Positions 2,941 through 32,238 of a DNA stretch of 33,567 nt are shown here, piece after piece. The notes beneath the pieces are model-generated. The model did not search any database and was not told the origin of the DNA. It saw only the letters and a list, made by a program, of their open reading frames with translations. The stretch is from NCBI GenBank assembly GCA_944320775.1, contig CALUIV010000029.1, positions 1 through 33,567 on the forward strand, in the 5' to 3' direction. The translations under genes were made by a program, and so were the position numbers. How positions within the stretch are numbered: position 1 is the first letter of the stretch; every line of letters begins with the position of its first letter. This stretch comes from an uncultured Paraprevotella sp. (GTDB lineage Bacteria; Bacteroidota; Bacteroidia; Bacteroidales; Bacteroidaceae).

Positions 2941-3128
2941 GAGCAATCAATCTTTAAATCTCTCAAAATTTCATTCACTAACGAAATTCTTTTGCTTTTT
3001 CCATAAACATGCCATTGTATCGCTACAATTCTAAGGCATTTGTTTCCAATAATTAACAATCAATCTACCATTATACCTTTAACTAGAAAACAACTTCTCA
3101 CGAAGTATTGTCGAATCATTTCTGATTG
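2905..3128 (-). ncRNA. Candidate structured small RNA, about 220 nt
   Basis: A leftward transcript is predicted from a TAACTTTG -7 box (3135-3142) to the terminator at 2905-2940. The 5' end CAATCAG (3122-3128) can pair with TTGATTG (2944-2950), joining the two ends. Inside, one hairpin (3091-3110) pairs CAA..CTTC with GAAGTTG around the GNRA loop GTGA. A second (3009-3039) pairs ATGCC with GGCAT and ATTGTA with TACAAT around the GNRA loop GCGA, with a 5-nt one-sided bulge. All pairing was found by eye. I do not recognise the family: it lacks the SRP RNA core and tmRNA features, and I could not fit it to 6S RNA. It could instead be a leader of mutS. Confidence 0.45.
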
Positions 3129-6745: not shown

Positions 6746-7669
6746 ATGTTCAACGATTTCATCAAAATAAAACCCCGGAAAATGAGCCGGAGTGAAATCA
6801 TGACTGAAATTAAAGATTTTATATTCATTAATTTCGGTTTGATTTGTTATGCCATCGGATGGGCAGCATTTTTGCTGCCCTACAAGATGACAACCGGAGG
6901 TTTGACTGGTCTTTGTGCCATTATATATTATCTGACAGATATCCCAATACAATTATCTTTTTGTGTTATCAATGTTGTCCTGTTAGTCTTAGCATTTAGA
7001 GAGCTTGGATATAAATTTGTCTTAAAGACTCTTTATGCTATCTTTATGCTATCAGTATTTCTAGATGTAGCACAAAATATCATGAAAGATGCCAATGGAG
7101 AATTTCTACAAATTCTCGGACCGGGCCAAGACTCTATGGCATGTGTACTTGGAGCCATTCTTTGCGGTTTTGGTATTGCCACAGTATTTATCAGTAATGG
7201 CAGCACGGGTGGATGGGATATTATCGCTGCTGTTATCAACAAATACCGAAATATCAGTCTTGGAAGAGTAATGCTCTATATTGATATATTCATTATTTCT
7301 TCCTGTTACTTTATTTTCGATAGTTGGCGAATGGTCGTTTTTGGATATGTCACTCTTGTGGTGTCTAATTATACCCTTGATATGATCGTAAACAGTACAC
7401 GTCAGGATATCCAATTCATTATTTTCACTAAGGATCATGTTAAACTTAGTGAACGTATTATCAACGAGACAGCTCATTCCGTAACTGTCATAGACAGTGA
7501 AGGTTATTATAGTCATACTCCTACCAAGGTAATGATTACTATCGTCCATAAAAACGAAGCAATACACATTTTACGCATGATTCATGAAGTGGATCCAAAT
7601 GCGTTTGTTTCACAAAGTAGGGCAGAAGGTGTTTATGGAAACGGATTCAATAAAATAAAACTCAAATGA
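6746..7669 (+). CDS. YitT family membrane protein, copy 1
   Basis: This 307-aa membrane protein belongs to the YitT family: an N-terminal membrane domain (DUF161) with several hydrophobic helices, followed by a soluble DUF2179 domain at roughly residues 220-307. Diagnostic stretches are LLPYKMTTGGLTGL, NGSTGGWDIIAA and, near the end, DPNAFVSQSRAEGVYGNGF. The molecular function of the family is not established; transport or signalling has been suggested. The gene starts 9 nt after leuS and overlaps the next yitT by 4 nt (ATGA), so the two are probably translationally coupled. In-frame ATGs at 6782 and 6800 are possible alternative starts, because the first helix begins only after MTEIKDF. Confidence 0.92.
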   Translation: MFNDFIKIKPRKMSRSEIMTEIKDFIFINFGLICYAIGWAAFLLPYKMTTGGLTGLCAIIYYLTDIPIQLSFCVINVVLLVLAFRELGYKFVLKTLYAIFMLSVFLDVAQNIMKDANGEFLQILGPGQDSMACVLGAILCGFGIATVFISNGSTGGWDIIAAVINKYRNISLGRVMLYIDIFIISSCYFIFDSWRMVVFGYVTLVVSNYTLDMIVNSTRQDIQFIIFTKDHVKLSERIINETAHSVTVIDSEGYYSHTPTKVMITIVHKNEAIHILRMIHEVDPNAFVSQSRAEGVYGNGFNKIKLK

Positions 7670-9239: not shown

Positions 9240-11531
9240 ATGAAAAGAATCATATTATCCATAATAGCTTTCTTTTACTTTATATGTTTATTCGCACAGA
9301 AAACAGGTAGCTGGCATATTTATGCTTCCTATCATAATGCTACAGCAAATGTACCTGTAGAAAATAAAATATATACGCTCTGTAACGGCAATTTATTCGC
9401 TTATCATACTACGGATTCAGAAATTATCACATATGACAAAACAACATCACTAAATGATTATAATATCATTTTCGTAGATTATAACAAGTCGCTTGAAAAA
9501 ATTATATTAATCTACGAAAACGGAAATATAGATTTTCTTAATCTTAATGATGAAATAACAAATTTATCCTATCTGAAAGAATCAGATATTCAAAACAAAA
9601 AAATAAATAATCTGTCCTTATCAGGAAATAAGGCTTTCCTGGCTACCGATTTTGGTATTGTAACCATTAATATGGAAAAAGAAGAAATTAGCAATACATA
9701 TAATTTAGATCAGCAAGTTTTCTCAGCCATAGAATGGAATAACACGATTTATGCCGCTACCGAAAATGGTATTTATACAGGAAAAATTTCAGATAATCTT
9801 TTAGACAAGAACAATTGGTCAAAATCCAATGATACAAAAATAAAATGCTTCAAGATCTTCGATAATCAGTTGTTCGCAACAGGAAATTCATATTTATACA
9901 AATACGATGAACAAACATCATCGTTTCAGTCAGTTGTAAAAGGAAATTTTACATTTACTTCCTTAGCCAATAACAGATTGATTGTTGGAAACAATCAGTT
10001 AATATATATCTTTAGTAAAGCCAATGAATATAACAAAATAACTCAACAAAATAGCTTTAAAGAACTTACTTACGCCAATGGTATATATTGGGCTTGTCAA
10101 GAATATAACGGCTTACAAGGATTTAAAATAAACGCTTCCAATCAATTGGAATCAGCTGTAGAAGCCATCATTCCCAATAGCCCGATTCGAGATTATACTT
10201 ATTATTTAAAGTATCAGGGAAATCGTTTGCTCATTGCCGGTGGATTGCATAATTATAATGAAATATACAATCCAGGAACAGCAATGTATTATGAAGATAA
10301 TAAATGGACCAATTTTGAAGATGGAAGTAAGATTACCAGCCAGACCAAAATGAATTACGAAAATACAACTTCTATTGCTCAAGATCCGAATGATCCGGAC
10401 CATCACTTTGTATCTGCCGCAGGAACAGGTTTATATGAATTTAAAAATGGAAAATTTATCAAACAATATAATTATAAAAACAGTAACCTACAAACCATAC
10501 TTCCTAACGATATCAATCCATTCTATTATGTTCGAATTTCAGGAACAACTTATGATCATGAAGGAAATCTTTGGATGTTGAATAACGAAGTAGATACTAT
10601 TATCAAAATATATAAAAAAGATGGAAGCTGGAGTAAAATTTATTGTGAAAACATAAAGAAAAATCCAACATGCGATTTTATTATGTTCGATTCAAAAAAC
10701 AGAGTTTGGATTAATTCCAGAAGAATGCCCGGCGGACTACTTTGTCTTAATTATAACGGAACAATAGATAATACAGCCGATGATATAGCAACGTTCAAAA
10801 CACAAATCATTAATCAGGATGGTACTACATATAATCCAGAAGAATTCTATTGCATGGCAGAAGATAAAACTGGAACCATATGGATCGGCACAAATCTAGG
10901 CTTGTTTGTCATTTCTGATCCTGATCAATATGGAAACAATGATTTTCAGTTTACACAAATAAAAGTTCCCAGAAATGACGGAACGAACTTTGCCGATTAT
11001 TTACTTAACGGCATAGCAATTACAGCCATTGCTGTAGATGGAGGAAATCGTAAATGGATAGGAACATCCAACAATGGAATCTATCTGGTAAGTTCAGATG
11101 GAATTGAAACAATACATCATTTTACAACAAAAAACTCACCCATTTTATCTGACAATATTTATTCAATTGCTATAAATGACAATACAGGTGAAATCATGAT
11201 CGGTACTGACAAAGGATTAGTTTCCTATGCAGCTGAAGCTACAGAACCAGAACAATCACTGAAGAAAAATAATGTATTAGTATATCCAAACCCTGTAAAA
11301 CCGGATTATAATGGTTATATTACTATTAAAGGACTAACCGATAATGCAGTTATAAAAATAACATCATCTACAGGACAATTAGTTTATTCCGGGACCTCTG
11401 TTGGAGGTGGATTTACCTGGAATGGTCGCGATGCACAGGGTAGGAGAGTAGCCAGTGGAGTCTATCATATCATTTCTTCAACTGAAACCGGAACAGAAAG
11501 TGTCGTAAGTAAAATTGTATTCATCAAATAA
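9240..11531 (+). CDS. porZ: PorZ-like secreted beta-propeller protein with T9SS-type C-terminal domain
   Basis: This 763-aa protein has a signal peptide (about 1-20, ending LFAQ) and two stretches of beta-propeller repeats. Repeats of two-component-regulator-propeller type are visible (GTIWIGTNLGLFVIS, RKWIGTSNNGIYLVSS). The C-terminal domain starts at VYPNP (about 681-685) and contains GFTWNGRDAQGRRVASGVY, resembling type IX secretion sorting domains. Architecture and length match PorZ, a surface component of the Porphyromonas gingivalis type IX system that binds anionic lipopolysaccharide. The family assignment is by architecture; whether this organism has a working type IX system cannot be seen here. 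A response regulator follows after 11 nt. A TAAATTTG lies only 5 nt before the ATG, too close to be trusted as a promoter. Confidence 0.8.
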   Translation: MKRIILSIIAFFYFICLFAQKTGSWHIYASYHNATANVPVENKIYTLCNGNLFAYHTTDSEIITYDKTTSLNDYNIIFVDYNKSLEKIILIYENGNIDFLNLNDEITNLSYLKESDIQNKKINNLSLSGNKAFLATDFGIVTINMEKEEISNTYNLDQQVFSAIEWNNTIYAATENGIYTGKISDNLLDKNNWSKSNDTKIKCFKIFDNQLFATGNSYLYKYDEQTSSFQSVVKGNFTFTSLANNRLIVGNNQLIYIFSKANEYNKITQQNSFKELTYANGIYWACQEYNGLQGFKINASNQLESAVEAIIPNSPIRDYTYYLKYQGNRLLIAGGLHNYNEIYNPGTAMYYEDNKWTNFEDGSKITSQTKMNYENTTSIAQDPNDPDHHFVSAAGTGLYEFKNGKFIKQYNYKNSNLQTILPNDINPFYYVRISGTTYDHEGNLWMLNNEVDTIIKIYKKDGSWSKIYCENIKKNPTCDFIMFDSKNRVWINSRRMPGGLLCLNYNGTIDNTADDIATFKTQIINQDGTTYNPEEFYCMAEDKTGTIWIGTNLGLFVISDPDQYGNNDFQFTQIKVPRNDGTNFADYLLNGIAITAIAVDGGNRKWIGTSNNGIYLVSSDGIETIHHFTTKNSPILSDNIYSIAINDNTGEIMIGTDKGLVSYAAEATEPEQSLKKNNVLVYPNPVKPDYNGYITIKGLTDNAVIKITSSTGQLVYSGTSVGGGFTWNGRDAQGRRVASGVYHIISSTETGTESVVSKIVFIK

Positions 11532-13584: not shown

Positions 13585-14076
13585 TTATAAATCCAATTGA
13601 TAAGCCAAGCGTGGTGTTCCGTTGGCTACATAAATAATACCGCAATAAACAAATCCATTTTTTTTAGCAATATGTTGCATGATCTTATTATCTTCGTGTG
13701 TATCTAAACGCAACGAAACTGCGTGATTTCGACACCAAGAAATACAAAAATCAGCTATGCCATGAATGCTTCCATCGGAGGCCAAACGATGAATTACATA
13801 ATAAGGTCTGTCCGAAAGCCAAGCACCTTCTATATGTGAATACGTCGGATCTGGACCTGGAAGAAAACAAAATGTAGCTAATATTTTTCCTGTTACATCA
13901 CAGCAGACCATACAAACCCTACGCTCTATTTGTTCTTTTATCAACTCTTCAGAAGGATAATTGTTAATCCATTGATTCGGGTTTCCTTGCTTTTTCATGA
14001 ATAACCGAGCCAAAGAAAACAAATGCATAATTTCTTTTAAATCATCCAATGTAGCATTTCTTACAGACAATGACAT
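13585..14076 (-). CDS. GNAT family N-acetyltransferase
   Basis: This 163-aa protein reads like a GCN5-related acetyltransferase. It begins SVRNATLDDLKEIMHLFSLAR, the usual first strand and helix. A central beta segment (VTGKILATFCFLPGPDPTY) and HRLASDGSIHGIADFCISWCR, the usual acetyl-CoA pyrophosphate-binding region, follow. The end, SLRLDTHEDNKIMQHIAKKNGFVYCGIIYV, is the typical last helix and strand. The acceptor substrate is unknown. It lies between metY and nadA on the same strand, but a 214-nt gap with a terminator separates it from nadA. Confidence 0.88.
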   Translation of the reverse strand: MSLSVRNATLDDLKEIMHLFSLARLFMKKQGNPNQWINNYPSEELIKEQIERRVCMVCCDVTGKILATFCFLPGPDPTYSHIEGAWLSDRPYYVIHRLASDGSIHGIADFCISWCRNHAVSLRLDTHEDNKIMQHIAKKNGFVYCGIIYVANGTPRLAYQLDL

Positions 14077-14237
14077 ATCAAAAACATTTATATTTTTATT
14101 AATACACGGAATATATAAATAAAGTATTTATCAAATAGTTATCAACAAGATACGAATAACTTATAAACACTTTAAACAAATAATATTCAATTAATTATGG
14201 ATATAAATATATTATTATCAACCATTTTTAAACAGAT

Positions 14238-14272
14238 AAAAAGACCCTGCTAATTCGAAGCTGAGTCTTTTT
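14238..14272 (-). terminator. Intrinsic terminator after nadA
   Basis: The 14-nt arms 14238-14251 and 14259-14272 pair with two mismatches around a 7-nt loop. Read leftward, the hairpin ends in TTTTTAT. It lies 19 nt beyond the nadA stop. Confidence 0.75.
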
Positions 14273-14290
14273 ATTGCCAATCATATTTAA

Positions 14291-15283
14291 TTATAAACCT
14301 AATTTTTCAGAAATTTCCAACATTCTATGAATCGGACGAATAGCTTTATCAGCAATTTCTTTATCAACAATTATTTCCGGCCATTCATATTTTAATGTAT
14401 TATAAAGTTTTTCTAAAGTAATCAGGCGCATATAATTACATTCATTACATGCACATGTACTATCAGATGGAGGAGCAGGAATGAATTTCTTTTGTGGACA
14501 AGATTTCTGCATTTCATGAAGAATTCCACTTTCTGTAGCCACAATAAATACATCAGCATCGTTTTTAATCGCATATTTCAATAAAGCCGCTGTCGAACCG
14601 ACAACATCGGCTAGTTTGACAACAGCTCCTTTACATTCCGGGTGCGCCAAAACTTTTGCTTGAGGATATGCTTTCTTTAACTCAATAATCTTCTCTACTG
14701 AAAATTTCTCATGTACATGACAAGCACCATTCCAAAGCAACATATTACGTCCGGTAATTGAATTAATATACCCACCTAAATTTTGATCTGGTCCAAAAAT
14801 AATAGGAGTGTCTGCTGGAAAGCTTTCGACAATCTGACGAGCATTGCTAGAAGTAACAACTACATCCGTTACTGCTTTTGTAGCAGCTGTTGTGTTTACA
14901 TAAGAAATTACGGTATGATTCGGATGTTCTGCTACAAATTTAGAGAATTCATCAGCAGGACAACTTTCAGCTAAAGAACAAGTAGCATTTAAATCGGGTA
15001 CAAGTACTTTTTTATTTGGACAGAGTATTTTATTGGTTTCTCCCATAAAATGTACACCACACATAACAATGATGTCTGCGTTTGTTTTAGCTGCTTTCTG
15101 AGCTAATGCTAAACTATCTCCTACAAAATCGGCTACATCCTGAATAACGCCTTCTGTATAGTAGTGAGCCATAATTACTGCATTTTTTTCTTTGCAGAGT
15201 TTTCTGATCTCAGTTTGCAAATTTAGAGAAGCATCTATAGGTTCACTGACAAACCCTTTTTCTAACCATTCTTTCTTAACCAT
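14291..15283 (-). CDS. nadA: Quinolinate synthase NadA
   Basis: NadA condenses iminoaspartate (made by NadB) with dihydroxyacetone phosphate to give quinolinate, the second step of NAD synthesis from aspartate. The protein has 330 aa. The three cysteines expected to hold its 4Fe-4S cluster are C75 (VMCGVHFMGET), C188 (WNGACHVHE) and C282 (CNECNYM). Other family marks are VIMAHYYTEGVIQDVADFVGDSL and VLAHPECK. Its partner gene nadB lies 13 kb away on the same strand, not in an operon with it, and nadC is not in the window. Its upstream region is unusually long; the nearest clear -7 box is about 230 nt before the ATG. Confidence 0.97.
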   Translation of the reverse strand: MVKKEWLEKGFVSEPIDASLNLQTEIRKLCKEKNAVIMAHYYTEGVIQDVADFVGDSLALAQKAAKTNADIIVMCGVHFMGETNKILCPNKKVLVPDLNATCSLAESCPADEFSKFVAEHPNHTVISYVNTTAATKAVTDVVVTSSNARQIVESFPADTPIIFGPDQNLGGYINSITGRNMLLWNGACHVHEKFSVEKIIELKKAYPQAKVLAHPECKGAVVKLADVVGSTAALLKYAIKNDADVFIVATESGILHEMQKSCPQKKFIPAPPSDSTCACNECNYMRLITLEKLYNTLKYEWPEIIVDKEIADKAIRPIHRMLEISEKLGL

Positions 15284-15510
15284 ATATATATTAATTATTT
15301 CTTTTTATCTTTTCAAAAAACTAATGATTATGGTGATTGCCTGTTGAAACTGTTCAGAAAAAAAATACCTATAATTTGCTTTTTAAGTTATTAAGAATAG
15401 AACTTTTTGTATTGACAGATAATCAACAGTTTATTTTTTGTCTTTTTGATTGATAATGAATAGATCTTATCTAGGTAAAACCTCTTTATTAACATCTTGT
15501 TGATAATGTG

Positions 15511-15518
15511 CAAAGTTA
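15511..15518 (-). promoter_or_regulatory. Possible nadA promoter -7 box
   Basis: The - strand reads TAACTTTG, a consensus -7 box. A transcript from here would have a leader of about 220 nt before nadA, in which I see no known riboswitch. A closer, weaker promoter is possible. Confidence 0.35.
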
Positions 15519-15711
15519 AAAACTTTATGCTAAATAATTGCTTGAAAACCGATGAAAATCATGTTTAAACTTCATTTTAATCTTTTGGTAACTTATTTTG
15601 TTTTCTCGTTTCTTTGTATAATTGATTCGTTGTTTTTTCATACCAAATTTATTTTTTATTTTCTATCATCTTTTTATAAACCTCTTTTTAACAAGTTTTC
15701 TTTTGATTCAT

Positions 15712-15719
15712 TATCTTTG
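15712..15719 (+). promoter_or_regulatory. trmH promoter -7 box
   Basis: TATCTTTG matches the -7 consensus and lies 21 nt before the ATG at 15741. It argues against the TTG at 15732, which would leave almost no leader. Confidence 0.6.
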
Positions 15720-15740
15720 TAAACAGAAAAGTTGAAAACA

Positions 15741-16274
15741 ATGAGAAAACTAAAAATTACGGAGTTAAACAGGATCAGTGTCGAAGAGTTTAAAATGGTG
15801 GATAAGATGCCTTTAGTAGTTGTTTTAGACCATGTTAGAAGCCTTCATAATGTGGGAGCTGTGTTTCGGACTTCCGATGCTTTTACTGTCGAACGTATTT
15901 GTCTTTGCGGAATTACGGCCACTCCTCCTCAGCCGGAAATACATAAAACAGCATTAGGAGCAGAAGAAACTGTTGATTGGACATATTATGAACGGACACA
16001 GGATGCTGTAATTGAGTTAAAACAGCTTGGATATGAAGTCCTTGCAATAGAACAAGTTGCGGGAAGTACTATGTTACAGCAACTTTGTTTAGACAAGCGG
16101 AAGAAATATGCAATTATTCTTGGAAATGAAGTAAAGGGAGTACAGCAAGAAGTGGTTGATTTATGTGACGGATGTATTGAGATTCCTCAGTTTGGAACGA
16201 AACATTCTTTAAATGTGTCTGTTACAGCTGGAATTTTAATATGGGAATTTGCTCGAAGACTTAAATTGGACTGA
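15741..16274 (+). CDS. TrmH/SpoU family RNA methyltransferase
   Basis: This 177-aa protein is a SPOUT-fold enzyme that transfers methyl groups from S-adenosylmethionine to RNA, most likely to a ribose 2'-OH. The three SpoU motifs are clear: NVGAVFRTSDAF (37-48, with the conserved Asn and Arg), AIILGNEVKGV, and IPQFGTKHSLNVSVTAGILIWEF, which forms the knot and binds the cofactor. The protein is short, a catalytic domain without an RNA-binding extension, so the target (tRNA or rRNA) cannot be predicted. It faces the DUF4294 gene across a 170-bp gap that holds origin-like repeats rather than a recognisable terminator. Confidence 0.93.
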   Translation: MRKLKITELNRISVEEFKMVDKMPLVVVLDHVRSLHNVGAVFRTSDAFTVERICLCGITATPPQPEIHKTALGAEETVDWTYYERTQDAVIELKQLGYEVLAIEQVAGSTMLQQLCLDKRKKYAIILGNEVKGVQQEVVDLCDGCIEIPQFGTKHSLNVSVTAGILIWEFARRLKLD

Positions 16275-16308
16275 TAGATCGTAATACTATGAAAAGCCGA
16301 ACAATGAA

Positions 16309-16317
16309 TTATGCACA
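16309..16317 (+). promoter_or_regulatory. Consensus DnaA box TTATGCACA
   Basis: A perfect match to TTATNCACA in the intergenic region downstream of trmH, 13 bp before a pair of TGTTGATAA sites. A second such box, in the opposite orientation, is at 16653-16661 inside the DUF4294 gene. Confidence 0.5.
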
Positions 16318-16326
16318 AATTATTTT

Positions 16327-16448
16327 CCTTGTTGATAACTGTTGATAATAGATTTATGAAAGATAGAATGTTAATTCAAATATACTTATTTTCAATGATT
16401 TAGATATGCATTTCCCTTTTATTAACCTTGTTGATAACAGTTGATTAT
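16327..16448 (+). repeat. Two near-identical 23-bp direct repeats
   Basis: 16327-16349 and 16426-16448 share the pattern CCTTGTTGATAAC, then T or A, then GTTGAT, then A or T, then AT. They are identical at 21 of 23 positions and start 99 bp apart. Copy 1 holds two TGTTGATAA 9-mers 10 bp apart; copy 2 holds one and a degenerate second. Copy 2 overlaps the DUF4294 stop codon. They look like protein-binding sites, most simply paired DnaA-type boxes. Confidence 0.6.
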
Positions 16449-17068
16449 AAGGCACCGCTTTCCACAAGTTGTACGACACGTTCAACCATACGGTCATCTG
16501 CTTCGGGATTATATTCTTTTTTCAGACTAGCGCCGAAAAGCCAGGCAAAGCTTTGATAAAATCCGGCTTTAAAATTTCCGAAAAAAGCTTTGACCAGTTC
16601 ATAAGATGATTGATTGCATTCTCGGTCAATTAATTTGATCAGCAGTTTACCTTGTGCATAAGTCAGTTTCTTCATTTGTGGAGTATATTGGGTTTTCAAT
16701 CCTTTTTCTACTGCACGCATGTGTTCATCTCTGGATTTTTGGTCAGGAAGACTTTGAAGAACTTGATAAGTTTCCAATATAGTACGATTAACCATTTGAG
16801 CGATTGGCAAGGTTTTTTTTACATTATAGACTAATCGGTTATAACGCATTGCTTCCCGCTTACTTTTAAATTTCATAGGAGGATATATAGGTAATTCCGG
16901 CATCACAATGACGGTGATGGAATCGCCTTTATAAATTTCCTTCTTTACTTTTTTATAGAAAGTAATTTGTACCTGCAATTCAGGATCATCCGAATTGTCT
17001 TGTGGCAAAGCAAATGAAGGAGTCAGATGCAGAGCAAGTAATAATATGGCTAGCCAGCTTCGTTTCAT
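16445..17068 (-). CDS. DUF4294 family exported protein
   Basis: This 207-aa protein begins with a clear signal peptide (MKRSWLAILLLALHLTPSFA), so it is exported to the periplasm or envelope. The mature part is rich in Lys, Arg and Tyr, with PELPIYPPMKFKSKREAMRYNRLVYNVKKTLPIA as the most conserved-looking block, followed by helices. I place it in DUF4294, a family of unknown function common in Bacteroidetes. A TAAATTTG -7-like box lies at 17079-17086, 10 nt before the ATG, which would give a very short leader. It is divergent from the helix-hairpin-helix gene (91-bp gap). Its 3' end touches a DnaA-box-like repeat and its coding sequence holds a consensus DnaA box. Confidence 0.85.
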   Translation of the reverse strand: MKRSWLAILLLALHLTPSFALPQDNSDDPELQVQITFYKKVKKEIYKGDSITVIVMPELPIYPPMKFKSKREAMRYNRLVYNVKKTLPIAQMVNRTILETYQVLQSLPDQKSRDEHMRAVEKGLKTQYTPQMKKLTYAQGKLLIKLIDRECNQSSYELVKAFFGNFKAGFYQSFAWLFGASLKKEYNPEADDRMVERVVQLVESGAL

Positions 17069-17159
17069 AACATCGATGCAAATTTATAAATTAATCTCTT
17101 ATCCTGATTGATTTGGACAAAATATCTATTTCATTTAATGTTTTAAAAGGATTGGATTT

Positions 17160-19223
17160 ATGAAAAACACAAGTTTTGAAAGTATAAACAGTTATCAACA
17201 TTGGTTGTTCTTAAAGGTTATAATGATATGTCTATTAGTATGTTATAATGTTGATAAATCTAGTGCACAAACTTTATCCTGGGATTATTTTGTTGAGAGT
17301 TTGTATGCCGATCAGGAATTAGATCAGGAATTGATTCAGGCCCATGTAGAAGAACTTTACGATTTGCATGAGCATCCTTTTAACATTAATACTGCTACTC
17401 GTGAACAATTGAAACAACTCATTTTTTTGACTGATCAGCAGATTGAGGATATTTTGTACTATTTATATCGTTATGGAGCCATGCAAACATTAGGAGAGCT
17501 AAAGTTGATAGAAAGTTTGGATTTTGAATCCCGTCAGTTTCTTCAGTTGTTTGTCTATGCTGTTGATAAACCTGTTGAAAATAGAAAAGTTTCGTTCAAA
17601 GAATTGTTTAAAGAAGGAAAGAATCTGTTGATAACTCGATTGGATATTCCTTTATATCAGCGTGATGGATATAAAAATTATCCAGATAGTGTATTGTTGA
17701 AAACTCCGGATAAAAAGTATTTGGGAAATGCTTTCTATCATAGTTTCAAATACCAGTATCAATTTCGGAATCGCTTATATTTAGGTTTTCATGCTGAAAA
17801 GGATGCTGGCGAACCTTTTGCCAATAATCTGAATAAACTTTACGATTCTTATTCTTTTCATCTCTTGTTGAAAGATTTTGGATGGATAAAGACTTTGGCT
17901 TTGGGCAATTATAAATTGGGATTTGGTGAAGGATTAATGATCAATACGAATTACACTATGGGAAAACTTTCTTCTTTGTCTACTTCATTTCGTAAACAAG
18001 TTATTAACAAACATGCTTCAACAGATGAATTTAACTACTTTCAAGGTGCTGCAATAACTTTCGGAAAATCTTTTTTCGAAACAACTTTATTTTATTCTTA
18101 TCGAAAACAAGATGCTAGTTTGAACGATGATGGTACTATTTCATCCATGAAATCAGATGGTTATCATCGTACATGGTTAGAATTTTCTCGAAAAAGAAAT
18201 GTTGAAAATCAAATGATGGGTTTTCATTTGGATTATTATTACAAAGATTTTCATTTAGGTACTACCGGATATTATCAACATCTGGATCATAAGTTTTCGA
18301 CAGGAACACAACTTTATCGACAGTATTATCAACAGGGAAATTCTTTTTGGGGATTAAGTATGGACTATGGTTTACGTTGGTATAAAATAATTTTTTCCGG
18401 GGAAACGGCTTATAGTGGAAATCGTTCGGCTTGGGCTTCACTTAATAAATTAATCTGGCAGATTTCTCCTGATTATCGGTTGGTTGGTCTACAACGTTTC
18501 TTCTCATATCGGTATTATTCCATGTTTGCCAATGCATTTTCTGAAGGAAGTGAAGTTCGCAATGAAAGTGGTTTTTATTTTGGAGTTGAAGCAACTCCCA
18601 AACGTTATTTAAAGTTGACGGCTTATTGGGATTATTTTTATTTTCCATGGCCTCGTTATGGCTTGTCACATACCAGTGACGGTTTCGATGGCGCTTTTCA
18701 AGTCAGTTATCAACATAACCGTCAATTGTCTTTTCGTGTTCAATACACGTTTCAGAAAAAGGAAAAGTTTGATCAGTATCATTATACCAATCGTACGAAA
18801 TTTAATTGGGAATATACACCGTCAGACTATTGGCGTTTACAAGGCTATTTTTCGAATATTATCGGGCGAAAAGCCGGTGAACATCATCAATGGGGTTTTT
18901 TATTGGGAAATACAGCAACCTGGCGGCTTAACGAATATCTTCGATCATCGTTTGTTTTGGCCTATATACAGGCAAAAGGCAGTTTATGTAGTCTTTCTTA
19001 TTATGAACCAGGATTGTTGAATACGTTCTCTTTTACTTCTTATTATGAACGTACTTGTCGTTTTGCCTGTACCTTACGTGCCGATTTGAGCAGTAACTAT
19101 ATGCTGATCGGAAAATACGGCGTAAGTTATTATCCGGATTCTGAAGAGATCAGTTCCGGACGTCAGCGTATACAAGGGCAATGGAAAAATGATATTTATT
19201 TACAGCTTAGAATTAAGTTTTAG
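17160..19223 (+). CDS. Helix-hairpin-helix protein with beta-rich, outer-membrane-like body
   Basis: This 687-aa exported protein has a hydrophobic leader ending in SSAQ at about residue 37. Residues 73-125 form a ComEA-like helix-hairpin-helix region (FNINTATREQLKQLIFLTDQQIEDILYY). The remaining 500 or so residues alternate aromatic and polar positions (for example YLGFHAEKDAG, FHLGTTGYYQHLDHKF) and end in LQLRIKF, like an outer-membrane beta barrel with a terminal aromatic. A role in DNA contact at the surface is conceivable from the HHH domain but not shown. Seven TTATCAACA-type 9-mers lie in its coding sequence, far more than chance predicts. The first ATG is used; ATG at 17223 is less likely because it would shorten the leader. 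Confidence 0.82.
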   Translation: MKNTSFESINSYQHWLFLKVIMICLLVCYNVDKSSAQTLSWDYFVESLYADQELDQELIQAHVEELYDLHEHPFNINTATREQLKQLIFLTDQQIEDILYYLYRYGAMQTLGELKLIESLDFESRQFLQLFVYAVDKPVENRKVSFKELFKEGKNLLITRLDIPLYQRDGYKNYPDSVLLKTPDKKYLGNAFYHSFKYQYQFRNRLYLGFHAEKDAGEPFANNLNKLYDSYSFHLLLKDFGWIKTLALGNYKLGFGEGLMINTNYTMGKLSSLSTSFRKQVINKHASTDEFNYFQGAAITFGKSFFETTLFYSYRKQDASLNDDGTISSMKSDGYHRTWLEFSRKRNVENQMMGFHLDYYYKDFHLGTTGYYQHLDHKFSTGTQLYRQYYQQGNSFWGLSMDYGLRWYKIIFSGETAYSGNRSAWASLNKLIWQISPDYRLVGLQRFFSYRYYSMFANAFSEGSEVRNESGFYFGVEATPKRYLKLTAYWDYFYFPWPRYGLSHTSDGFDGAFQVSYQHNRQLSFRVQYTFQKKEKFDQYHYTNRTKFNWEYTPSDYWRLQGYFSNIIGRKAGEHHQWGFLLGNTATWRLNEYLRSSFVLAYIQAKGSLCSLSYYEPGLLNTFSFTSYYERTCRFACTLRADLSSNYMLIGKYGVSYYPDSEEISSGRQRIQGQWKNDIYLQLRIKF

Positions 19224-21303: not shown

Positions 21304-21491
21304 GGTAAATTAGATGGTACAATCATTTTTTTTGAATGATATATAAGTTTAATAGTTTTTCTACATATAAAATTATGAATAGATTATTGTCCTGACAAAT
21401 TTTTTTAGATATTTAAATGTTGTATTTATCTTAGAGATTGGTAACTGTTCCTAAAAATCATTTATTTTCTTTTTTTCTTTTGTGAACTGAT

Positions 21492-30638: not shown

Positions 30639-32238
30639 CCTTAATTCCGCAACACCTTTCAAAAAAGATAATTTAAAGTACTGGGTAATAACATATTGCC
30701 GAGTACTTTGTTATGTCAGAAGATTCACTTAACTTAGTGTTGCATAAAAAAATCAAATAAATCTTCATCTGACATGGCTAAAGTACAAATAAAATCGGAG
30801 AAAATCATCCCTTTTGGCGGAATATTTTCAATCATGGAGCAATTTGATGCCCTTTCATCCAATGTGATTGATTCAACATTAGGCTTGCGAAGCCGAACCT
30901 TCGGTTACCAGTACAGTGAAATATTCCGTTCTCTTATGTGTGTGTTCTTCTGCGGTGGCTCTTGCATTGAGGATGTCTCCACACATCTTATGAGGCATCT
31001 TTCCTCTCACCCAAGACTCAGCACATGCAGCGCCGATACGATTTTACGTGCCATAAAGGAGTTGACAGTCTCAAACATAACCTATACGTCTCCTGTCTCC
31101 GGGAAATCATACGACTTCAATACATCTGATAAAATGAATGAGCTTCTGTTAAAGTCTCTTATATCTACCGGAGAGTTACGCAAGGGACAAAGGTATGATT
31201 TGGATTTTGACCACCAGTTCATTGCAACAGAGAAATATGATGCAAAACCGACATACAAGAAGTTTACGGGATACAGTCCGGGTATAGCTGCCATTGGTGA
31301 CCATATTGTCGGCATTGAGAACCGCGATGGCAACACCAATGTCCGTTTCCATCAACAGGATACGCTTGAAAGAATCTTTACCAGACTTGAAAATAACGGC
31401 ATCTTTATAAACAGGGCACGCATGGATTGTGGATCATGTTCCGAAGATATAGTGGACATGGTAAAAGCCAACTGTAACTATTTCTATATCCGAGCCAATA
31501 GATGTTCCGCTTTTTACGACGACATGTTCATTCTCAGAGGTTGGAGGACAGAGGAAATCAACGGAATTGAATACGAACTGAACTCTATGACCGTAGAAAA
31601 GTGGAAAGGCAAAGTGTACCGGCTGGTCGTTCAAAGACAAAGAAGAACAGACAACATACAGGAAATATGGGAAGGAGAATACACCTACAGATGTATTCTG
31701 ACCAATGATTTTGATTCGGATGTAAGGGAAATAGTGGAGTTCTACAACCTGCGCGGTGGAAAGGAAAGAATCTTTGACGACATGAACAACGGATTTGGTT
31801 GGAAACGATTGCCAAAGTCATTCATGGCTGAAAACACGGAATATATGCTGATGACTGCACTTGTAAGAAACTTTTACAAGACTATTATCAAAAGAATGAA
31901 CGTAAAGGATTTCGGACTATCTACAACGAGTCGTATCAGGACTTTCGTCTTCAAATTCATTTCTGTTCCGGCCAAATGGATTAAAACATCCAGAGAGTAC
32001 AGACTGAACATCTATACCGTTAATCCTGCTTATGCAAGAGTCTTTAATGCAAGTGATTGATTCTTTTCTCTTATGGGTTGTACAGCGTATTATCTCAAGT
32101 CGCTTTATGGGGTAAGGGGAAGATATGCTTAAAAAATATCAAACAGACTCTCATGTTATATATGGAACATTAAGATTGGAGATTTTTACAAAATATCCAT
32201 TAATAACACGAGAATCGAAATTATTTGCGGAAATTAGG
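30639..32238 (+). mobile_element. IS1380-family insertion sequence
   Basis: The element is 1600 bp, typical of IS1380. Its ends are imperfect inverted repeats: CCTTAATTCCGCAA on the left and, read inward on the other strand, CCTAATTTCCGCAA on the right (12 of 14 identical). It carries one complete transposase gene. The family usually makes a 4-bp target duplication, but here the flanks are ATAA (left) and TTAA (right), and shifting the ends by 1-2 bp does not produce a match. The intact gene and ends suggest it could still be mobile. Confidence 0.9.
30774..32060 (+). CDS. IS1380-family transposase
   Basis: This 428-aa DDE transposase is complete. The likely catalytic acids are D in YDLDFDHQFI, D in RARMDCGSCSEDI, and E in YNLRGGKERIFDDMNNGFGWKRLP. 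The last fits the Y-x2-R-x3-E signature of the IS4/IS1380 group. It also has the usual N-terminal helical region and the C-terminal ALVRNFYKTI and RIRTFVFKFISVPAKWIKTSREY segments. Base composition (about 40% GC) differs from the neighbouring GC-richer dacB. No frameshift or internal stop is seen, so the enzyme is probably functional. Confidence 0.95.
   Translation: MAKVQIKSEKIIPFGGIFSIMEQFDALSSNVIDSTLGLRSRTFGYQYSEIFRSLMCVFFCGGSCIEDVSTHLMRHLSSHPRLSTCSADTILRAIKELTVSNITYTSPVSGKSYDFNTSDKMNELLLKSLISTGELRKGQRYDLDFDHQFIATEKYDAKPTYKKFTGYSPGIAAIGDHIVGIENRDGNTNVRFHQQDTLERIFTRLENNGIFINRARMDCGSCSEDIVDMVKANCNYFYIRANRCSAFYDDMFILRGWRTEEINGIEYELNSMTVEKWKGKVYRLVVQRQRRTDNIQEIWEGEYTYRCILTNDFDSDVREIVEFYNLRGGKERIFDDMNNGFGWKRLPKSFMAENTEYMLMTALVRNFYKTIIKRMNVKDFGLSTTSRIRTFVFKFISVPAKWIKTSREYRLNIYTVNPAYARVFNASD

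Follow-up and report, generated by a model that had tools for sequence, protein, structure and literature searches.

Where does chromosome replication start in an uncultured Paraprevotella species whose genome is spread over 61 contigs, and does a dense cluster of 9-mers on one of them mark the place? The family to which it belongs, the Bacteroidaceae, is among the main gut bacteria. The cluster lies in a stretch of 33,567 nucleotides (contig CALUIV010000029.1, positions 1 to 33,567), called the window below, and a first-pass annotation made from the letters of this DNA had taken it for a candidate chromosomal origin (oriC) or DnaA-binding zone. In this phylum oriC commonly lies away from dnaA, according to the passages of PMC4755523 on this point, and is therefore hard to find in fragmented genomes. 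Here, too, dnaA is on another contig (C3) than the window (C29). We propose with considerable confidence that the stretch is oriC in a Paraprevotella-like bacterium of the family Bacteroidaceae, with lineage-specific TTWTNAACA boxes that would be bound by DnaA. The cluster, its conservation at the gene pair nadA/spoU and the turn of GC skew in relatives were observed directly, and from them we infer that replication starts at this stretch.

A cluster of short boxes surrounds nadA and spoU

We counted 14 exact copies of TTATCAACA in the window, 13 of them within 14139..18715, on both strands, and one at 7233; the chance level for the whole window was 0.94 (100 shuffles, largest 5). The first-pass annotation had reported the same single copy outside the cluster, and its estimate of about 0.1 copies expected in 4.6 kb agrees with the 0.11 copies that the frequency elsewhere in the genome predicts for 14139-18715. 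Its count of 12 copies in the cluster was one too low. The genome-wide count that it had suggested yielded 81 copies (29 for the reversed control) and revealed no second cluster of such size in the assembly (2.82 Mb, 91% complete). Outside the cluster, the listing for this genome holds at most three copies per approximately 5 kb; the other places with close copies that we examined were C2:22066/22086, C7:5651/5704 (within a long gene), C19:34237/34369 and C22:7752/8751.

Seven of the 13 copies lie in the coding sequence of a helix-hairpin-helix (HHH) gene (17160..19223, plus strand; weak HHH_3 match of 4.6e-4, below the curated cut-off), at 17192, 17249, 17561, 17626, 18272, 18326 and 18707. 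One copy (14361) lies in nadA, which encodes quinolinate synthase (14291..15283, minus strand; Pfam NadA, 2.8e-120), and five are intergenic. The sequences flanking the copies differ from copy to copy, so that we regard the cluster as a set of short sites and not as a repeat family. When W was allowed at position 3 and any base at position 5 (TTWTNAACA), 21 sites were found in 14000-18800 against four in the remaining window. The two perfect TTATNCACA boxes to which the first-pass annotation had pointed are present in the interval but do not constitute an enrichment (2 found and 2.0 expected). We rejected TTATNCACA as the main box, since its count in the window is at chance and the loci of relatives favour TTATCAACA.

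The proposed core of the origin, based on its box count and on the box density in relatives, is the AT-rich intergenic region between nadA and spoU (15284..15731). It contains one exact TTATCAACA at 15498 (minus strand), one TTATTAACA at 15486 and one TTTTTAACA at 15685. The adjoining SpoU-type RNA methylase gene, spoU (15732..16274, plus strand; Pfam SpoU_methylase, 1.4e-35), served as the anchor for all comparisons. Three further exact boxes (16330, 16340 and 16429, all on the minus strand) lie in the intergenic region between spoU and the DUF4294 gene (16275..16444). At the other end of the cluster, a stretch of 81.5% A+T (14035..14234) carries one exact box and two variants, and its composition makes it a possible candidate for the unwinding element. 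AT-rich stretches were found at 14035, 15282 and 15561, and equally rich ones occur in the same window at 21325 and 26685.

The cluster is conserved in relatives with divergent nadA and spoU

Within the family, we fetched 20 of the 60 genomes with a spoU match (own genome included) and classed 13 of them by hand as syntenic, with nadA, DUF4294, HHH or rSAM genes flanking spoU. With the window excluded, TTATCAACA was the top 9-mer by z in the syntenic relatives from -2 to +3.5 kb of spoU (24 copies near, 4 elsewhere), and it was absent from the top 9-mers listed for the seven non-syntenic family genomes.

A larger test was based on the 80 best named loci, chosen by spoU likeness. In 46 of them nadA is divergent and lies before spoU, and in these TTATCAACA ranked first of all 9-mers by z as well as first by count of 1260 letter permutations (126 copies near spoU and 16 elsewhere, with 7.2 expected near). 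At least one near copy was present in 40 of the 46. The 34 non-divergent loci, by comparison, had 14 copies near and 14 elsewhere. The presence of the cluster in loci with the divergent pair, and its absence from those without it, supports the reading as an origin. Counted per kilobase over the 46 loci, the copies peak in the kilobase before spoU (49 hits) and fall off downstream (34, 21, 12, 7 and 0). The E. coli box TTATCCACA showed much weaker enrichment at the origin, with 20 near copies. Six copies of TTATNGACA were seen near spoU in L036, a locus of the high-G+C relative G008; these may represent a further variant of the box, in which a G+C-rich genome has G at position 6.

GC skew turns near spoU

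The cumulative G-C curve of the whole window has its minimum at 15715 (-258), immediately before spoU, and the cumulative A-T curve has its maximum at 14244. In G009, a complete relative with one contig of 2.99 Mb and spoU at 435 kb, 19 of 20 skew samples fit turns near spoU and at about 2.0 Mb: samples between 470 kb and 1.95 Mb have positive skew, and those from 2.1 Mb onward, across the contig start and up to 300 kb, negative skew. The spoU contig of G022, a relative of the same genus in which spoU lies at 62 kb, was sampled at 8 places, and both samples before spoU were negative (-0.10 and -0.09) while all six after it were positive (+0.07 to +0.12). Among the usable loci of the larger test, a change from negative skew ahead of spoU to positive skew behind it was seen in 29 of 40 divergent loci compared to 11 of 27 others, and a local minimum in the last kilobase ahead of spoU in 24 of 40 compared to 5 of 27. 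Three Dysgonomonas loci (L083, L103 and L120), with no nadA and no TTATCAACA near, have a skew minimum approximately 450 to 610 bp before spoU and are perhaps the same origin with a different box.

The proposal of an origin in the first-pass annotation is supported by a box cluster conserved at divergent nadA/spoU, by the skew turn of relatives and by a parS-like site close to spoU in two relatives (see below), and the stretch is very probably oriC. We propose that initiation would proceed from a core between nadA and spoU, where DnaA would bind an array of TTWTNAACA boxes, mostly TTATCAACA, that extends past the 3' end of nadA on one side and into the HHH gene on the other. Nearby AT-rich DNA would presumably open, and two forks would depart in opposite directions, which would account for the skew turn in relatives. 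Used together, the gene pair and the box consensus would allow the origin to be located in many assemblies and growth-rate estimates based on read depth to be anchored, and they would offer sites at which DnaA can be tested.

The boxes resemble DnaA boxes with position 6 changed

To define which boxes are tolerated, each position was substituted in turn and the enrichment near spoU was determined in the 46 divergent loci. TTATCAACA itself, with A at position 6, was enriched 17.4-fold, compared to 2.8-fold with C at this position. Enrichment was kept with T at position 3 (7.1-fold) and with any base at position 5 (4.2 to 9.4-fold), and partly with C at position 9 (6.1-fold) or A at position 1 (3.8-fold). 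The E. coli DnaA box consensus is given as TTWTNCACA in the relevant part of PMC7561715. Accepting W at 3 and any base at 5 is a DnaA-box-like tolerance with position 6 changed, and the C at position 6 that characterizes E. coli-type boxes is not what the boxes near spoU carry. Judged by this pattern, TTWTNAACA is the usual TTWTNCACA with A replacing C at position 6, and DnaA is its likely binder. Among the open-access papers listed by our literature searches, none was found to propose TTATCAACA or TTWTNAACA for the DnaA box of Bacteroidales.

The predicted oriC of Prevotella intermedia (PMC4755523), from the same phylum, likewise lies at a skew transition and away from dnaA, and contains multiple DnaA boxes. 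That prediction used E. coli boxes with one mismatch allowed, and the passages on it give neither a variant consensus nor a gene context. With an E. coli-type oriC (TTWTNCACA), the stretch shares the two-strand 9-mer cluster, the skew turn, AT-rich DNA and the tolerance at positions 3 and 5; it differs by the A for C at position 6 and by boxes that extend approximately 3 kb beyond the start of spoU.

The recognition helix of DnaA was also compared. GKRNHATVLHS of the organism's own DnaA aligns with GGRDHTTVIHA of PDB 8btg, which we take to be a B. subtilis-type DnaA. At the position of E. coli residue 435, Ala was found at order level in 26 of 29 readable sequences (Ser in 2, Thr in 1; 30 closest of 56 matches, own included), and Ser or Thr in 42 of 48 readable sequences from other orders of the phylum, the six with Ala all being of the same class. 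The 20 family genomes have 11 Ala, 8 Ser and 1 Thr. An E. coli T435M variant is defective in box binding, as stated in passages of PMC5742627.

We related residue 435 to box type in the 20 family genomes less the seven non-syntenic ones, plus 38 hand-picked loci of the named set of 80, which include some that are not divergent, less one lacking a readable motif. Loci with Ala435 (42) had 270 TTATNAACA and 50 TTATNCACA near spoU, and those with Ser or Thr (8) had 23 and 11, respectively (Fisher P = 0.028, uncorrected for kinship). G009 is a clear exception, with Ser at 435 yet A at box position 6. Given this contrary case and the P-value without kinship correction, a clean match of residue 435 and box was rejected, and the comparison of these loci points to a weak association of A at position 6 with Ala435. 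Residue 433, of which the Asp in E. coli is said to matter for box position 7 in parts of PMC8235120, is Asn in the own DnaA; it was rejected as the determinant because loci with Asp carry the box too.

Box pairs precede parA and HU-type genes

One of the close-copy places of the genome is a tandem pair of TTATCAACA on one strand (C2:22066-22094), 20 bp apart and 86 and 106 bp before parA (L310, L362); the gene behind it encodes a ParA-type ATPase (Pfam AAA_31, CbiA). Of 30 family loci, 27 were readable, and 19 of these have a DnaA-type box within 300 bp before parA (two carry only TTATCCACA) and 8 have none. Two same-strand boxes exactly 20 bp apart were present in 11 of the 27, and a twelfth locus has them 19 bp apart. 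Many relatives retain the pair at an almost constant position and spacing. Throughout the order, TTWTNMACA-N11-TTWTNMACA matched in 183 of 295 genomes, compared to 56 of 295 for the reversed control (hand count). Among 30 loci listed from this search, parA lies 77-84 bp downstream in 11 (three of the own family, own genome included), 4 precede a short HU-type gene, and the remaining 15 have neither. The HU-type genes (L353, L354, L371 and L373, from other families of the order) match PF00216 at 1.3e-34 to 2.8e-33.

Thus, the same box would serve the origin and a segregation promoter, that of parA. As a broader proposal, toward which we lean only slightly, the DnaA of Bacteroidaceae would have come to recognize TTWTNAACA instead of TTWTNCACA, together with altered residues in its recognition helix. 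A tandem pair of this DnaA box, with its copies 20 bp apart, located in the parAB promoter and, for other families of the order, ahead of an HU gene, would tie initiation to both segregation and nucleoid structure. The specificity shift with helix changes is a lead. The box pair at parA means that a connection between initiation and segregation can be tested directly in laboratory Bacteroides.

A palindrome, GTTTCACGTGAAAC, is parS-like by the consensus that we assume for parS. This 14-mer was found once each in three of six relatives searched, and lies on the same contig as spoU at distances of 39 kb (G022) and 22 kb (G032), with a chance of falling so near of about 3% and 1%. A parS in the window itself was considered and rejected (six matches at two mismatches, below chance).

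Alternative explanations

Several observations weigh against an origin at nadA/spoU. The window has a second cumulative G-C dip at 3101 (-251), only slightly shallower than the minimum at 15715 and separated from it by a rise to -77, so window skew alone does not single out the gene pair. In relatives, the G009 sample at 400 kb (+0.019) runs contrary to the trend, the skew of G008 is noisy and fits in outline, with the wrong sign at 1000 kb and already positive values at 540 kb, and 16 of 40 usable divergent loci miss the local minimum before spoU; moreover, a divergent gene arrangement by itself pulls skew the same way. The 80 loci are mutually related, hence not independent, and were picked for their spoU. 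In the narrower interval of -1.0 to +1.5 kb, TTATCAACA was only tenth among 9-mers by z in the 13 relatives, and G009 has few exact TTATCAACA near spoU, though 7 TTATNAACA. Exact GTTTCACGTGAAAC is missing in three of the six relatives (G008, G009 and G027), the copy of G048 is off the spoU contig, and the own copy is on C23, a contig unlinked to that of the window. Finally, no TTATN[A/C]ACA or TTTTC[A/C]ACA lies within 2 kb upstream of the own dnaA, where autoregulation of dnaA via the box was rejected for this reason. The dip at 3101 adjoins the start of mutS and has no boxes close by.

The locus could be an origin whose TTWTNAACA sites are bound by another chromosome-cycle protein, acting also at the parA and HU promoters. 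The box does depart from the DnaA consensus at a position read by the recognition helix (TnCACA, in passages of PMC5742627), and the strictly spaced tandem pair before parA is as for a dedicated regulator. However, the positions at which it is tolerant (W at 3, N at 5) match the DnaA box, and boxes of this kind have been assigned to DnaA elsewhere. The mollicute DnaA box is reported as TT(A/T)TC(C/A)ACA in the part of PMC3322544 concerned, which allows A at position 6 and W at 3; mollicutes are a distant phylum, accept both A and C, and in several of them the boxes flank dnaA. Likewise, of the two DnaA boxes predicted on the linear chromosome of Cyanothece 51142, one is TTATCAACA, by the passages of PMC4674748 on it, although that is an unrelated host with two boxes and not a large cluster. 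Furthermore, with TTATCCACA so little enriched (20 near, 7.2 expected), an origin without TTWTNAACA would have few DnaA sites. A different binder therefore appears unlikely to us.

We consider it still less probable that the stretch titrates or inactivates DnaA in the manner of datA, with the origin elsewhere. The spread of the boxes over 4.6 kb, with 8 of 13 in coding DNA, the proximity of datA to oriC in E. coli (passages of PMC5742627) and a window skew minimum hardly deeper than the 3101 dip would suit such a locus. The skew of relatives turns near the same genes, however, which titration alone would not explain; datA of E. coli is not known to lie at a skew turn. No other cluster of this size is present in the assembly, in which a missing piece is possible at 91% completeness. 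As described in passages of PMC5742627, datA is also a dense DnaA-box cluster, but one with a minimal length of 183 bp. Almost no weight remains for copies arising from protein coding, base composition or a repeat family. YQH, YQQ and VDK stretches in the HHH gene do favour the 9-mer, and synonymous-codon shuffles of this gene gave a mean of 2.3 TTATCAACA. The first-pass statement that coding does not explain its seven copies is thus correct in number but too strong, coding accounting for part of them; seven were reached in just 2 of 5000 shuffles. In addition, the 13 copies occupy both strands with different flanks, five of them between genes, and the enrichment at the same genes in relatives persists against the control of 9-mers with the same letters. 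We therefore retain oriC with DnaA-bound boxes as the preferred reading of the stretch.

Other features of the window

The DUF4294 gene between spoU and the HHH gene occupies 16445..17068 on the minus strand. Away from the cluster, a PorZ-like type IX secretion system protein is encoded at 9240-11531, and a DDE transposase gene (30774-32060) is located near the right end of the contig.

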